DNA from: Clytia hemisphaerica
Taxonomy: Eukaryota > Cnidaria > Hydrozoa > Leptothecata > Clytiidae
Reading direction: 5' to 3'
NCBI GenBank assembly: GCA_902728285.1
Contig: CACVBU010000857.1
Span: forward strand, 62,001-126,000
DNA: 64,000 nt
The notes beneath the pieces are model-generated. The model was not told the DNA's origin, did not search any database, and was given only the letters and a program-made list of their open reading frames with translations. Both the position numbers and the translations under genes were made by a program. Shown here one piece after another: positions 26,063 through 50,527 of this stretch. Numbering within the stretch: the stretch's first letter is position 1; each line of letters starts with the position of its first letter.

Positions 26063-26486
26063 TATCTTTTGTGTTCTCATAAAAAAGTGTATTTTTCTCT
26101 ATTGCAAAATCTGTTTAGTATGGTACAGTCTATTGTCCTCTTCTTTTTCTTTCATTGTGTTCCAGCGCTAATGAACTGAATGTAATATATTAGAGAATAA
26201 AGAGATAAAAAAGTGATAAAACCTTAGAAGAAGAAACAAAAGCCAATAAACATCGAACAATAAAAAACTGAAGAATCATTTTTTTCTTTGAAGTTCAATA
26301 AAAAGAGCATTTGAAGGGGATAAAAGTAATTAATCTTGAGCCAAAATTAATTTGGTCAAGTCGCGTTCTGAAGTAAAAGCTCTGGGACCAAAACTGTAAA
26401 TTGGGCCCGACGTGGAAAAAAAGACTTCGATAGACATTGGGTTTAAAACTTTTCTTGTGGCTTGAAAGGCATCGTATTAGAGCATT

Positions 26487-28232
26487 ATGGTATCGCTTAT
26501 CACAGTCAAATTGTTATTTTTATTGGTGATATGCGCATGCGTTGTATATTCAGTCGATACCACAAGTGATGCAAAAGCTCTGGAAGAGTTGAACAAAAAG
26601 GACATTGAAAGTGAGATCAAGAGAAGTTTGAAAAGTTTGATCACTCTAGCAAAAGAAAAGAAGTCAGTTGACGCCGAAGGCAGCAAAGAAAAAAAATCAA
26701 TCGAAGTGGAAGCTACCAAAAAGGAGGCTGCTGCTGCAAAAGATGAGAAGGCTTCTAGCAATAGTGCGGAAGGAGCAGGCATCACCCTAGATGAAGCTAA
26801 ACGACGTCTGGCAACCGCCCTGATCAAGGAAGCACGCAAAGAAGTATCTTCCAGGATCCCATTTTTCTCCTCAAAAAAATCCATGCCGTTACTCCACAAG
26901 AAATCCGATGTTCCATATTTCCATAGTCGTGAGGCTGCTGATATCCCTTTCTTTCATAAACGAAGAAGCATTCCATATTTTTCCAAGAAGAGCACCATTC
27001 CTTACTTCCAACGCAGCGCAGCGATGCCGTATTTTTCCAAGAAAAACACTATCCCATATTTTCAAAGAAGTATCGAAGAAATTCCATATTTTGCTTCAAG
27101 ACGTGATAAAATTCCATATTTTGCTTCCAAAAAGGACATTCCGTATTTCAGCAAACGTGATATCCCATATTACGTAAGAAATGCAGCTATCCCGTATTTC
27201 CAACGCCGGTCCATCCCGTATTACGCCAAACGAGACACCATCCCATTCTACCATAAGCGGGAGACCATACCTTACTTTCAACGCAGTGCTACCATCCCAT
27301 ACTACAGTAGGAAGGAGCTCCCATTCCATTTGGCAAGACGAGCAACTAAAGAAGATTCTATCCCTTACTTTGCAAATAAAAAGGACAGTATCCCGTATTT
27401 TGCGAACAAAAAGTCAGAAATTCCCTATTTCTCCAAAAAGAATTCGATTCCTTACTTCGCCAGCAAAAGAACGACATCAGAGGAAATTCCCTACTTCTCC
27501 AAAAAAGATTCCATCCCTTATTTTACAAGCAAGAAAAGCGCAGAGGAGATACCGTTTTTCGCAAATAAAAAATCCGCCAGCGACGAAGAAATACCGTACT
27601 TTGCCAACAAGAAATCTGCTGCGATTCCTTATTTTGCAAACAAAAAAAACGCTATTCCCTACTTTGCTAGCAAGAAAAATGTCGCTGAAATTCCATATTT
27701 CGCGAGTAAAAAATCCGCCGAAATTCCATACTTCGCCAACCGAAGATCAGCCGAGATTCCGTACTTTGCAAATAAAAAAGACAGCATACCTTACTTTGCA
27801 AATCGGAGGGATGCTGCAATTCCTTACTTCGCCAGCAAAAGAACGGCATCAGAGGAAATTCCCTATTTCTCCAAAAAGAATCTGATTCCATATTTTGCTA
27901 ACAAAAAGGATTCGATTCCTTATTTTGCAAGCAAGAAAAGCGCAGAGGAGATACCATATTTCGCAAAGAAAAAATCTACATCGGAAGAAAATATCCCATA
28001 TTTTGCAAGCAAGAGATCCACATCAGCCTCTATTCCCTACTTTTCGAGCAAAAAAGATATCCCATTCTTCCAGAGCACCCTTAATGATGATGATGCTACC
28101 TACTTCATGGATGCTAACCTCCAGGAATCATCAGATGCCTCCAAGAGGGAGACGGTTACCATCCCCTTCTTCCAAGACCAGAAGAGGGCTACAGACAATG
28201 AAGAGTTCAACTCGATCCCTTATTTTCAATAG
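26487..28232 (+). CDS. Secreted multicopy IPYF-peptide precursor (putative neuropeptide-like prohormone)
   Basis: One 581-codon exon. Residues 1-22 form a signal peptide (hydrophobic VKLLFLLVICACVV, cleavage likely near VYS-VD). Residues about 23-120 are a charged Lys/Glu/Ala spacer. From about residue 124 to the end there are about 40 copies of a (I/V/M)P(Y/F)(F/Y) motif, usually IPYF plus AN, AS, S or Q. Most copies are followed by KK, KR or RR and preceded by short Asp/Glu/Ser/Ala/Thr stretches. This is the layout of a peptide prohormone cut at dibasic sites. No Gly precedes the dibasic pairs, so C-terminal amidation is not expected. The last copy, IPYFQ, ends the protein. I do not recognise this family by name. 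A repetitive secreted structural protein is the main alternative. The start is the first Met before the signal sequence. Confidence 0.8.
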   Translation: MVSLITVKLLFLLVICACVVYSVDTTSDAKALEELNKKDIESEIKRSLKSLITLAKEKKSVDAEGSKEKKSIEVEATKKEAAAAKDEKASSNSAEGAGITLDEAKRRLATALIKEARKEVSSRIPFFSSKKSMPLLHKKSDVPYFHSREAADIPFFHKRRSIPYFSKKSTIPYFQRSAAMPYFSKKNTIPYFQRSIEEIPYFASRRDKIPYFASKKDIPYFSKRDIPYYVRNAAIPYFQRRSIPYYAKRDTIPFYHKRETIPYFQRSATIPYYSRKELPFHLARRATKEDSIPYFANKKDSIPYFANKKSEIPYFSKKNSIPYFASKRTTSEEIPYFSKKDSIPYFTSKKSAEEIPFFANKKSASDEEIPYFANKKSAAIPYFANKKNAIPYFASKKNVAEIPYFASKKSAEIPYFANRRSAEIPYFANKKDSIPYFANRRDAAIPYFASKRTASEEIPYFSKKNLIPYFANKKDSIPYFASKKSAEEIPYFAKKKSTSEENIPYFASKRSTSASIPYFSSKKDIPFFQSTLNDDDATYFMDANLQESSDASKRETVTIPFFQDQKRATDNEEFNSIPYFQ

Positions 28233-28237
28233 CGGAG

Positions 28238-28243
28238 AATAAA
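28238..28243 (+). terminator. Candidate polyadenylation signal of IPYF precursor
   Basis: AATAAA begins six bases after the stop codon. This is close to the stop for an animal 3' UTR. Other A-rich sites follow, so its use is uncertain. Confidence 0.3.
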
Positions 28244-29194: not shown

Positions 29195-29588
29195 ATGTAC
29201 TTAGTCAAAATATGGGAGCCTTTGGATGTTCTTAACTTTTTTTTCTTTTTTTTTTTTCTTAACATGTTCTTATTTTCACCATTTTGTGAGTAATTTTGTC
29301 CACTTTCTTTAAAATTTGAAAATTATTGTCGCGAAAAAAGAAAAAATATTGACGCGAAAAGTTTATAATTGTTGAAGCGAAAAAACAAAGAAATACTGAC
29401 GCGAAAAAGCAAAAAATATTGAAGCGAAAAGTTTATAATTTTTGAAGCGAAAAATCTGAAATTATTGACGCGAAAAAAGGGGAAAGTATCCCGTTTTCTT
29501 TCCCGCCCTTATTTTTGCAACGCCCGGCACGTCATATTGAAGCGTTACGTTCTCCTATAGTTTGTTCTTATAAAAAACGTGTATATAC
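29195..29588. repeat. MITE of TACACGTTTTTT family with internal GCGAAAA tandem array (copy 2)
   Basis: The right end GTTCTTATAAAAAACGTGTA (29,564-29,583) and inner words GGATGTTCTTAAC, AACATGTTCTTATTTTCACC match the family. The left terminus is missing or eroded. At 29,325-29,480, TTGACGCGAAAA/TTGAAGCGAAAA occurs about eight times, interleaved with AGTTTATAATT. Confidence 0.65.
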
Positions 29589-42000: not shown

Positions 42001-44730
42001 AACCCCTTATTCTCGAATAAAAACATTGCTCCATACTGTTTTTACCTTCCAAAAACAACTATAATCTGGCGGACTGTTTTACAGTCCGCCTAAGCAAAAG
42101 AATATTACCATATACTACCGGGCCACTTAATCGCGCCATCCAGTCTATCAAAAAGCTTTAAGTGAACCCCGGGCTACTGTCATGGCGGCTCGAAGATGTC
42201 TGATTTTTAAAAATGTTTATCAGTCTTATTTTTAAAAAGTTCTCTAGCTCTTTCTTTTTGACACCCCTGTCTCAGTGCCCCGGTGGCATGATTTCAGTAC
42301 ATGATTTTTTTCAGTACATGGTTTCAGTACATGATTTTTTCCTACGTCACTGCAGTAATCAAATTTTTATTGCACTCATTTGTGAATTGAGATATAAATT
42401 GAATAAAGACAGCGATAATAAAAAACAGTTCTTGAATTCCCAAGCCATTTAGGATGATTACAAATGAGTGCAATAAAAATTTGATTACTGCAGTGACGTA
42501 GGAAAAAATCATGTACTGAAACCATGTACTGAAAAATATCATGTACTGAAATCATGCCACCGGGGCACTGAGACAGGGGTGTTTTTTGTACATTTGCAGA
42601 AAAAAAAGTTTGAAAGTAAGGCTAGCATTCCAAGCCGGATACATTTGTGAAATCTAATGTGAGAAAAACATCATTAGACGAGAAATTCAGACAAAATGCT
42701 TATAGTGACACAAAATTTTCAATTGGAAATATCTTTCCAAGACTGTCCCCAGAAGAGCTGAAATTAACATACATAAGACTTTGAGTGTCTTGGCTCCACT
42801 GTGGTATGAAAATCCTTTGGAGGCACGTGGTGGCAAGGTGCCTTTTTTGAGGTTGAAGTTTGCAAATTTCCGGTGTCAACATTATATTTCTTATACACAA
42901 CACGTCTTTTGCATCTTTCTCACAGCTTGAAACGTCATAACGACTTATAATTATCAATTAAGTGGAAGAATCTAACTCTCACAGGAATGTTTTAAGTCTC
43001 TTTTGGGAATTGAATGAGTGATTTTCGATAAGAAATGCAATAAAAATGCTTCGAAAAATCATTTAATGAGGGAAGGAGAGTGAACAACAATATCATTACT
43101 GCGGACATAGCTAGTACACGAGAAATCGGCAAAAATCTGTTACTTGTATATCCAGTGTATAATAAATCCTTGCTATAAGAAACCACAAATATAAAGCTCG
43201 ACATCCTGTTTCAATCCCTTGTTTGCATTACGGGTATAGAATACTGAAGATTATAATACGAGGCCCCCTTGTTGGTAATTCTCAACTTCAGTTGAGTTAG
43301 AATCTGAGAATGTGTGTGTGTCTGTCTGTCTGTATGTCCCAAAACTTTGGGGCAGCCTGGAGACTTCAAAAATTATTCGATTTGGCTGAAATTTTGCACA
43401 CTTGTTCCTTGGGTGAATATCGGGGAGTTTTTTTCATTTTTTGAAAATTTTTATTTTTGGGGCCTGGGCAAGAGTTTTTCGCCAAAACGAGGCTAAAACT
43501 TTGGGGCAGCCTGGAGACTACAAAAATTGTTCGATTTGGCTGAAATTTTGCACACTTGTTCCTTGGGTGAATATCGGGGAGTTTTTTTCATTTTTTGAAA
43601 ATTTTTATTTTTGGGGCCTGGGCAAGAGTTTTTCGCCAAAACGAGGCTAAAACTTTGGGGCAGCCTGGAGACTTCAAAAATTGTCCGATTTGGCTGAAAT
43701 TTTGCACACTTGTTCCTTGGGTGAATATCTGGGGGTGCTTTTTGCATTTTTCAAAAATTTTGATTTTTGGGGCCTGGGAACGAGTTTTTTGCCAAAACGA
43801 GGCTAAAGCTTTGGAGCAGTCTACAAGCCTCCAAAATGATCGGATTTGGTTGAGATTTGGCACACTTGTTCATTGGGTGAATATCTGGGGGTCTACAATT
43901 GGGCCTATGCATGATTTGAAGCCACTGAAGTTGAGCCCAGTGCGTTGCGCACGTTCGACTATTGAAAATAGAAAAAAGATTAACTCCTTAACGTTCTCAA
44001 AAAGCTTATAATCGCATTTTTAAGATCTTTCAATGCTTAAATTATGAATCGAATTATCTCGGCTATGACGATAGCTAAACCCATAATGTTGGTACCGTTT
44101 GAAAGCTCTTTCAATGCCCTACTCTTTCAGCGTACTTTTTCAGATTTCATAAATTAGGTCCTCAATCAAAACTACCGACAGCCGAAAACATCGTTCCTGA
44201 GAGAACAAATCTTCGCTGATGGGGCGTCAAGAAATTAAATTTTCCAGTGGGATAGAAAAGGGTTTATTTCACTAACCCAATAGTTAACAATATTGAGGGT
44301 GTAGGAAGTAACAAAACCTCGGAAATATTTAATATAATATATCTCATAATTTAAAGGAGTATATGTTTTTCTTTTCATAAGAACATCCAAAAGTTTTAAA
44401 GCATTCGGTTATTCTTAACTTTTTGAGTTTAAGTACAAAAGGTTCTTAGTGTGTTCTTAATTTCACCATTTTGTAAGTTTTTTGGGCCATTATCCTAAGA
44501 AATTGGGTGTTTCAGAATCCACAAAGGCTTAAATTGTTCATAACATGTTCTCATATATTGTCAACCGAAGCCTTAGATTATTATATAGTTTGTTCTTACA
44601 AAAAAACATGTATTTTCTTGTTTTGTTTTTTTAGAAAGACGAATATATTGAGATAGTGGTGGAGAACGCTTTATCAACCAGGATTATCATCACGGAAGCA
44701 TTGTTCAGTGGTTATCTTGTGGGTTCGTGA
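33061..44730 (+). CDS. Secreted C1q/TNF-fold protein, adipolin/erythroferrone-like (7 exons, complete)
   Basis: Exons: 33,061-33,144; 36,682-36,798; 37,585-37,684; 39,029-39,186; 40,008-40,213; 41,160-41,235; 44,635-44,730. All junctions are GT-AG and all reading phases agree, giving 837 nt (278 residues plus stop). Residues 1-20 are a signal peptide. Residues 29-116 are a polar prodomain with no collagen Gly-X-Y repeats, ending in RRQR, a candidate furin site. The C1q-like domain fills about 117-278: FVRGTGLDMRLGRFTVPYTA, MYNFNANLNIH, LCIDGECFSN, INFSGTLKLK, and the final FSGYLVGS at the stop. The FVRGTGL..GRFT.P...Y.F.A segment and overall length fit C1QTNF12/FAM132 (adipolin, erythroferrone) better than collagenous C1q proteins. 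In vertebrates these are circulating hormones; the role here is unknown. Introns carry many MITEs. Orthology within the C1q/TNF superfamily is less sure than the fold. Confidence 0.85.
33211..33310. repeat. Dispersed repeat beginning ACCGGGTGTCCCAG
   Basis: Inverted relative of 18,030-18,145: shared ACCGGGTGTCCCAGAAAAAA, TTTTAAAGAATCAAT and TTTGCATTGGAA. It lies in intron 1 of the C1q-like gene, 66 bases after its donor site. Confidence 0.6.
33405..33520. repeat. TTTTCGCGAG word cluster
   Basis: TTTTCGCGAG and ACTTTCGCGAG recur four to five times with irregular spacing in intron 1 of the C1q-like gene. Comparable GCGAAAA repeats occur at 29.3-29.5 kb. Confidence 0.45.
33960..35000. repeat. 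Tandem/dispersed repeat with 164-172 bp unit and ATT microsatellite
   Basis: ACAACATAAGTTTACTTGA starts at 34,535, 34,699 and 34,871 with long matching downstream sequence (CTCTGTCAGG, CAGCCACCGACCGTTTAGAG, CATGAAAAACATTCCAAACT). Another partial unit is at about 33,975-34,070. An (ATT)n run occupies 34,508-34,533. All is within intron 1 of the C1q-like gene. Confidence 0.75.
37252..38885. repeat. Inverted repeat pair flanking exon 3 of the C1q-like gene
   Basis: Arm 1 (about 37,252-37,430) and arm 2 (about 38,700-38,885) are reverse complements with small indels: GGGGTGGTTCAAAACTAGGG, TGTACCACCCTTTAACTTTT, GAATGAAATTTGG, AGGTAACTTTTGACAAAA, TGCCTAAAGTGAGCAAAAAC. The 1.3-kb interior contains coding exon 3 (37,585-37,684) and a hairpin MITE. 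Confidence 0.8.
37698..37792. repeat. AACGTT hairpin MITE
   Basis: CCCAACTGGCACACAAC is mirrored by GTTGTGTGCCAGCTT, with alternating TAACGTT/AACGTTA words between. It begins 14 bp after the exon 3 donor of the C1q-like gene. Confidence 0.85.
40674..40791. repeat. AACGTT hairpin MITE with 18-bp flanking direct repeats
   Basis: The hairpin core runs from about 40,688 to 40,773 (CAACGTTGTTTCAACGTTC mirrored by GAAACAACGTTGTGTGCC). Copies of ACATTTGTATGGCTGCAA lie at 40,674-40,691 and 40,774-40,791. The left copy overlaps where the terminal CCCAGCTGG would be. In intron 5 of the C1q-like gene. Confidence 0.8.
40805..41085. repeat. CACCCCTGT-type MITE, diverged
   Basis: ACACCCCCTTCTCACAGAAC near 40,806 is mirrored by CCAGTGAGAAGGGGATGT near 41,070. 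GTGGGGATGG-type words lie inside, as in 30,307-30,590. Intron 5 of the C1q-like gene. Confidence 0.6.
42261..42582. repeat. CACCCCTGTCTC-type palindrome, about 110-bp near-perfect arms
   Basis: The ends ACACCCCTGTCTCAGTGCCC and GGGCACTGAGACAGGGGTGT are exact complements, and the arms continue through TCAGTACATG repeats and ACGTCACTGCAGTAATC. The 100-bp loop resembles about 8,240-8,320. Lies in intron 6 of the C1q-like gene. Confidence 0.85.
43308..43890. repeat. 154-bp tandem repeat, about 3.5 units, with leading microsatellite
   Basis: TGTGTGTGTC/TGTCTG runs at 43,308-43,335 precede units starting at 43,341, 43,495, 43,649 and 43,805 (AAAACTTTGGGGCAGCCTGG). The first three are nearly identical; the last is diverged and partial. 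The open frames over it are a by-product of the repeat. Lies in intron 6 of the C1q-like gene. Confidence 0.9.
44362..44612. repeat. MITE of TACACGTTTTTT family (copy 4), ends 22 nt before exon 7
   Basis: TATGTTTTTCTTTTCATAAG at the left is mirrored by GTTCTTACAAAAAAACATGTA at the right. Interior CATAAGAACATCCAAAAGTT and AACATGTTCTCATAT match the family. The right end is followed directly by the pyrimidine tract and AG of intron 6 in the C1q-like gene. Confidence 0.85.
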
Positions 44731-49337: not shown

Positions 49338-49559
49338 TTGGATATTGGAAACATCATGATTCGTTTAATACTACTTTTTATTTTATGCTTTATTGGAATG
49401 CAATATTATTACCAACAAACAGAACAAATTTATGCAGATATGCTGAACAGAGAGAAGATAGCTAGCCAAGTTTCGGTCCGATTCGGAACATATTTTCCCG
49501 AAAATCACACATTGGTAAAACGGGATGATAATGGTTGGATCGAATATGTGAAGTCTGAG
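49338..49559 (+). CDS. Candidate first exon: signal-anchored hypothetical protein
   Basis: From either Met (49,338 or 49,356) the frame encodes a strong hydrophobic segment, MIRLILLFILCFIGM, then a hydrophilic region QQTEQIYADMLNREK ... DDNGWIEYVKSE. It reaches GAG|GTAATA at 49,559, a good splice donor. The frame stays open to 49,826, where a second hydrophobic stretch appears, so an unspliced 162-codon protein is possible. A leading hydrophobic helix suggests secretion or type II membrane topology. No domain is recognised and I could not identify a following exon. Confidence 0.35.
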
Positions 49560-50527
49560 GTAATAAATTACTTTGCCAACAAAACATTAGCTGCTTCCGA
49601 AACTGCCTTTGGTATTGAGAATAAACAAAAAAAAACTGAAAATGAAGTTATTGCCACCGCAGGAAGCCTAAAGCTTCCGAGGATGGCATTCATAGCTTCA
49701 CGCATAAGGAAGTTGGGCAAACATCTCATAATTTTGCGCGCGTTTTTCAGTATTTTAGTTCCGGTTAAATGGTGTACCGGTAACATTCTTAGCTTGACTG
49801 TATTTCTATTGTTTTATCATCATTAAAAACACTTTTCCGGATTTGTTTTGATCTGATACCATTTTCAAAGTCTATGTCTTTTTTTACCTCAGGGAGTCGA
49901 ATTAAGGGAATTCCTTTTGTTGGGAATTCTATTAAAACACAAGTTATTAACCCTCTGAGCAACGCAAATTAGAAATTTGTATCCTTAAAACTTTCGTGTG
50001 ACTATTCTAAAAGCAGTTAGTACAGTAGCGTTTGGGAAGAGAAACAAGCCATATTTCTATATTTGTAATAAAAGAAGATGACAAAAAAAAAACAGATAAA
50101 AATTTTTATCTCTATAGAAATATCTATGAGATGACACAATGCTAATATTTGTAGACAAATTTTGCTTCAGAGAGAGCAATCCTACAAAAGTAACGCTCAG
50201 TAACATTCTTTCCAAATTTCAAAATATTGTCGTTCTTCGAGTGGCACTTTAATGAATTATGCTAGTAAGGTAATAGCAGCAATTATGCTACCGAATAACT
50301 CGGATCAGACTCGTGAGAATTACCCATTCCTCCTGGGGAGGGGGAGTAGACGAGCTATCGTCCCATAATATATTATTATGATATAACATAGTTTGTATAT
50401 TATAAAACGTAATATGTTTCGCGGCGGATAGAGTCTGTGTTTACAACAGCTACCCCCGAAAAAATTCCCGTCTTCACGTTTGTTCCTCTTAGATGAAACT
50501 CGTCTTAGACTATAGCATAGTCTAGAG

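Follow-up and report, generated by a model that had tools for sequence, protein, structure and literature searches.

Some forty predicted non-amidated IPYF peptides in one candidate neuropeptide precursor of Clytia hemisphaerica, and further precursors of the same design

Introduction

The classical cnidarian preprohormones, such as those of Antho-RFamide, the GLWamides and the X1PRX2amides, combine a signal peptide with many peptide copies that have basic sites at their C-termini. In the RFamide, GLWamide and PRXamide precursors a glycine precedes the basic site and the peptides are amidated. As described in PMC9545775, acidic and sometimes other residues stand N-terminal to the peptides in cnidarian precursors, the C-terminal processing is classical, an aminopeptidase or endoproteinase whose identity is not established makes the N-terminal cut, and an XP start gives protection against aminopeptidases. 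According to PMC12440616, previous screens in cnidarians searched chiefly for cleavage sites, residues for amidation and motifs at the N-terminus; one screen, PMC6756747, states that its database does not include non-amidated peptides.

In 2025, a non-amidated Hydra peptide was reported to be bioactive, the first such cnidarian record to the knowledge of its authors (PMC12440616). The same paper describes the Hydra LW-peptide precursor A, which is multi-copy and non-amidated, like the gene considered here, and neuronal, as that gene probably is, and of which one LW peptide is bioactive; compared by description only, it differs in that its core LW stands at the C-terminus. In the part of the paper available, it is reported to be without homologues in any other organism.

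The closest description comes from Clytia itself. The GLWamide cells of the planula ring the aboral pole, and their cluster includes cells that express a gene with IPYFAN repeats, dibasic-like sites and no glycine (PMC12225738, 2025). In the accessible part of the paper this is a single sentence, in which the gene is neither named nor given with its sequence, and which describes neither the chemistry of the peptides nor related genes.

Here we describe a gene within a stretch of 64,000 nucleotides (the window; G000:C588:62001-126000) that shares with it the IPYFAN motif, the dibasic-like sites behind it and the lack of glycine. It is probably the same gene, since PMC12225738 was the sole paper matched in open-licence full texts, supplements excluded. 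A hydrozoan survey, PMC8638164, does not contain PYF in its main text. PMC12440616 reports 36 new Clytia genes, and of the names used in that paper ANamides could stand for the IPYF gene under another label.

We consider it about 85% probable that the gene is the preprohormone of short, non-amidated hydrozoan neuropeptides, most likely freed by GLWamide-group neurons of the planula. This reading draws on the expression of the IPYFAN-repeat gene that PMC12225738 reports for cells within the GLWamide cluster of Clytia. It is the best reading, and its novelty is lowered by the 2025 sentence; what is new is the missing amidation together with similarly designed precursors elsewhere in the genome.

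Results and Discussion

Gene structure

The features assigned to the gene are the following.

26487..28232, + strand: IPYF-peptide precursor, a single open frame of 581 aa (translation; no intron needed)
26487..26552, + strand: predicted signal peptide, residues 1-22, MVSLITVKLLFLLVICACVVYS (hydropathy; cleavage after residue 22 placed by the -3/-1 rule)
26553..26855, + strand: charged spacer, residues 23-123, largely helix-predicted and without IPYF units (translation, structure model)
26856..27359, + strand: repeat part 1, units 1-18, with varied tails (S, Q, H, AS) (motif count)
27360..28058, + strand: repeat part 2, units 19-39, mostly IPYFAN/IPYFAS with KK/KR/RR (motif count)
28059..28229, + strand: last part, units 40-42, with an acidic spacer (translation, motif count)
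28238..28243, + strand: AATAAA hexamer, possible polyadenylation signal (read from the DNA)

In the frame listing of the window, the ATG lies at 26487 and the stop codon at 28230-28232. The DNA has a TAG in frame at 26478-26480, upstream of the ATG, which itself has an A at -3 and a G at +4, and the start is therefore well defined, barring an upstream spliced exon. The N-terminus is strongly hydrophobic, with a best 11-residue mean hydropathy of 3.46, and none of the 15-residue stretches starting past residue 30 exceeds 0.30. By hydropathy alone, the precursor thus has a signal peptide and no second membrane stretch. A single-sequence structure model predicts helices in the spacer at residues 29-80 and 101-123, with low confidence in places, and gives pLDDT values below 50 for all of residues 125-581 (mean 38.7); the repeat region is predicted to be disordered.

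The two repeat parts differ in regularity. Units 1-18 include the variant cores IPYY, IPFY, IPFF, MPYF, VPYF, MPLL and LPFH, and the second part contains an internal duplication (27500-27616 versus 27902-28018, 81%). The final unit, at 28215-28229, is IPYFQ, with the stop codon immediately after it. The first-pass annotation of this DNA had placed the frame at the same coordinates and had noted a signal peptide, a charged spacer, about 40 IPYF motifs separated mainly by KK, KR or RR, and predicted peptides ending in -YFAN, -YFAS, -YFS or -YFQ, all of which was recovered here.

Repeat units and predicted peptides

There are 29 exact IPYF cores in the precursor, 40 if the core is written as [IVLM]P[YF][FY], and 42 with MPLL and LPFH counted in. 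By comparison, 10,000 shuffles of the protein contain a mean of 0.02 IPYF and a maximum of 2. A dibasic site is found at most three residues after the unit in 35 of the 42 cases (KK 21, KR 8, RR 5, RK 1). Inspection by eye of the other seven showed five followed by a single R, one without a nearby basic residue and one at the stop codon.

With 41 units parsed (unit 40 is unparsed), the predicted products are IPYFAN (8 copies, computed [M+H]+ 724.366), IPYFAS (8, 697.356), IPYFS (5, 626.318) and IPYFQ (5, 667.345), together with fifteen single variants. In all 581 residues there is no G[KR], which makes the usual amidation impossible, and free-acid peptides are therefore to be expected, unlike in the RFamide, GLWamide and PRXamide precursors. 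This point also counts against the neuropeptide reading, because isolated cnidarian neuropeptides are described in the available part of PMC9545775 as C-terminally amide-protected, which the IPYF peptides would not be. The earlier annotation was silent on the missing amidation.

On the N-terminal side, the intervals from the last basic residue to the next core (41 intervals) consist of S, E, A, D, T or N in 112 of 117 residues, a count in which the script misparsed one interval (ASRRD-K). The residue directly before the core is S, E, T, D or A in 38 of the 42 cores. Such acidic or small residues before the peptide are as in the classical cnidarian preprohormones, and the units have X-Pro at the N-terminus, as in some of these, the Pro being part of the unit definition used in counting. 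The IPYF peptide would accordingly begin at the X of X-Pro.

These products bear on another possible origin, namely a defensive or venom-type short-peptide precursor of secretory cells. Antimicrobial peptides can come from multi-copy precursors without amidation, and in this respect the IPYF precursor would fit. However, the main predicted products here have only 5-6 residues and lack charged side chains and cysteine, in contrast to antimicrobial peptides of the cationic kind and venom peptides rich in disulfides. As the expression is moreover reported in a neural cluster (PMC12225738), we regard a defensive or venom role as very unlikely.

A secreted repeat protein with a structural or adhesive role, as in cement, mucus, silk or the nematocyst matrix, is somewhat less remote, but still improbable; its aromatic repeats would cross-link, and the basic pairs would be a charge pattern instead of places of cleavage. 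Repeats that are aromatic and Lys-rich are found in adhesive proteins, and larvae attach by the aboral end. This is the pole ringed by the GLWamide cells, whose cluster is reported to include cells expressing IPYFAN (PMC12225738). A protein of this kind is difficult to reconcile with the presence of only two Cys, residues 16 and 18, both within the signal peptide, with the position of the basic pairs 0-3 residues after 35 of the 42 cores, or with flanks that vary in both length and sequence. The reported expression is in the neural cluster, not in gland cells (PMC12225738). A match to a known structural repeat protein, which the first-pass annotation had named as a possible objection, was not obtained either: the Pfam scan of the precursor gave two matches, both far under the curated cut-off, and the PDB search gave zero matches up to E 1.

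Selection on the core

At the DNA level, the 29 exact IPYF cores fall into 18 forms. For the 40 [IVLM]P[YF][FY] cores, the uncorrected pS is 1.006 (saturated) and the pN 0.056, the choice of cores by their residues in itself lowering pN, versus a pS of 0.763 and a pN of 0.622 for the two codons preceding each core; all four values are proportions from pairwise comparisons inside a single gene, and the differences they count are not independent events. Since silent change is saturated, the copies are old, and the four core residues have been held by selection while the DNA drifted. The contrast between core and flank means that the amino acids of the core are kept, not the DNA. The IPYF peptide itself is thus under selection.

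The codon statistics also decide on the view that the repeat is a recently amplified minisatellite within a frame, with no meaning at the peptide level. Unequal exchange did occur in the second half of the precursor, where pieces 372-402 bases apart are 81-85% identical, and genome searches with the repeats match many repeat-born frames that lack peptide units. Nevertheless, the number of DNA forms among identical cores, and synonymous change that is saturated where replacement is rare, speak so strongly against a recent amplification that it can practically be dismissed.

Proposed mechanism

According to the neuropeptide reading, the precursor would enter the secretory pathway, where prohormone convertases would cut C-terminal to KK, KR, RR and some single R, and a carboxypeptidase would then take off the basic residues. 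N-terminal trimming would proceed through S, E, A, D, T and N and be halted at the Ile-Pro bond. Each precursor would in this way give about 40 peptides with free C-termini, among which IPYFAN, IPYFAS, IPYFS and IPYFQ would predominate. Their source would most likely be GLWamide-group neurons of the planula, with GLWamides released alongside, and they would act via receptors, probably GPCRs, in controlling settlement or metamorphosis. If neurons of the GLWamide type in the planula do release IPYF peptides, the latter are immediate candidate regulators of larval settlement.

The neuronal part of this proposal is weakened by the published IPYFAN expression being stated, in the available text, at the level of a cell cluster (PMC12225738). 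The cnidarian multi-copy neuropeptide layout suggested in the first-pass annotation is well supported by the unit layout, the selection on the core, the flanks and that same expression, while its remark that it knew no described family with this core must give way to the one sentence on IPYFAN repeats in PMC12225738. Its interpretation is thus partly upheld. A further point against the neuropeptide reading is that homologues of the IPYF precursor were found neither with the whole protein (E 0.001) nor with the repeats alone (E 10), with 7995 candidates scored in each case in a protein database that may hold few animals.

Further precursors in the genome

The genome search with the IPYF precursor (417,433,876 bases, 951 contigs) led to four further multi-copy precursors, located on contigs C869, C797, C432 and C805, which were invisible to an annotation of the window. 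The first one (L002:490-2034, + strand) has 515 aa, a signal-like start and 31 LPFY-type cores, 30 of which are followed by KK; LPWN, LPWE and LPWY units are also present. The residue preceding the core is A in 19 cases, E in 5, T in 5 and S in 2, and the cores have a pS of 0.852 and a pN of 0.013. The stop codon comes directly behind LPFYMA, and KNTLPFFSKE continues in frame past it. In the IPYF gene, the IPYFQ at the stop ends just as the four IPYFQ units inside the protein do. Stops placed exactly after IPYFQ and after LPFYMA are thus two landmarks that fit free C-termini.

The precursor on C797 (L010, minus strand, 4483-3001) has 352 aa in two exons and 24 LPLF-type cores (DLPLFRK), with a 70-base signal exon and a 424-base GT-AG intron that are both deduced from the sequence. 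Its cores have a pS of 0.856 and a pN of 0.083 and are preceded by D (15), E (6), R (2) or A (1), and two RFGK units lie near its start. The LPFY and LPLF precursors are under constraint like that of IPYF. The three have a common design, that is, [I/L]-Pro-hydrophobic/aromatic followed by a basic site, with no glycine between their cores and that site. Computed [M+H]+ values for free acids expected from the two further precursors are 741.364 (LPFYMA), 670.327 (LPFYM) and 489.307 (LPLF).

The two other cases are less regular. On C432 (L011), a precursor of 326 aa has 7 IPFH-type cores, whose pS of 0.582 and pN of 0.183 come from too few copies to weigh, and free IPFHF units are mixed with amidatable FPVFHFG-KK, FPSFHI and RYG-KR units. 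On C805 (L012), RPWQGYYGA-KR and DLPWYQA-KR units are found in two overlapping frames that do not join, which could be due to an assembly error or a broken gene. Searches of open-text papers (supplements excluded) did not find LPFY, LPLF, IPFHF, LPWY or PWQGYYGA in any on cnidarian neuropeptides, and the LPFY and LPLF genes may already be in a published supplement.

Three genome searches gave at least 83, 69 and 85 matching rows, from which 20 stretches of the first, four of them with the precursors just described, 9 further loci of the second and 9 of the third were inspected. Since this is only part of the matches, the five precursors in all are a lower bound. At the 9 loci of the third search, none of the frames of at least 80 aa carried two or more [ILVMF]P[FYWL][FYWHL] cores. 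Apart from L036 and L015, the other inspected loci had the look of open frames that run across minisatellites or repeats of other kinds. L015 has SFPLFWKEK units. At L036 (G000:C77), a repeat frame from 1696 (+ strand) contains FLQAKHLKPSDYPFYNQ-RR units of YPFYNQ type. YPFYN is part of the amidated Hydra peptide Hym-176C, YPFYNQNPKVamide (PMC7266959), and the likeness of the L036 units to its start could be chance or indicate another precursor.

The mutual E-values of the IPYF and LPFY precursors in the genome searches are 6e-23 and 5e-27. Homology of the two was considered on this basis and dropped, as repeat-born frames score down to E 2e-17; when unrelated repeat frames score this strongly, E-values between repeat proteins are no evidence of descent. 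For the IPYF and LPFY spacers, 12 of 500 shuffles were as good as the actual pair, a weak signal slightly above chance, and for the other five spacer pairs the numbers out of 500 were 13, 30, 99, 391 and 446, so that two pairs come close to IPYF/LPFY. The protein search with the LPFY precursor gave one weak match at E up to 1, P0002 (E 0.0081), a 300-aa protein from a marine eukaryote (source merc) that carries glycine-free IPRIY/LPRMY-KK units. It is similar to the LPFY precursor in design, and we do not claim a relation.

The PW peptides of Hydra are likewise short, with [L/I]-P-aromatic, to which the LPW units of the LPFY precursor can be added. They are unamidated, with a free C-terminus. 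The IPYF precursor has no Trp in its composition, and the C-terminal Pro-Trp of the PW family is accordingly absent from it. In the literature available, the PW peptides end in PW and are described as epithelial, whereas the aromatic pair of IPYF is usually followed by 1-2 residues. Reviews, as far as accessible, report activity of the PW peptides, and PMC13004499 uses both PWamide and LPW as names for them in different passages. A relation of the PW peptides to those of IPYF type is for us a lead only.

It is tempting to see in IPYF, LPFY and LPLF, perhaps with IPFHF, LPWY and Hydra LPW, a single hydrozoan superfamily, whose free-acid peptides would share the core [I/L]-Pro-hydrophobic/aromatic and have receptors of their own, and which amidation-based screens would have missed systematically. 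We put this forward tentatively, as an idea somewhat more apt to be wrong than right. If true, peptidergic signalling would have, next to its amidated arm, a second one without amidation. A precursor with about 40 conserved unamidated copies, in a genome with at least two more precursors built in the same way, suggests that some of the peptide repertoire has so far escaped notice.

Surroundings of the gene

The window contains 42 stop-to-stop frames of at least 100 aa, 6 of which cross an N gap. Comparison of 20 of these frames with Pfam gave no match at the curated cut-off. A 162-aa frame at 49338-49826 (+ strand) has a hydrophobic start after its first Met and a sub-threshold Pfam match only. 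Two tandem arrays were also observed, one at 43341-43890 with a 154-base unit in 3.6 copies (91% matches), and one of GACGCGAAAA-like units at 29311-29479, shortly downstream of the IPYF gene.
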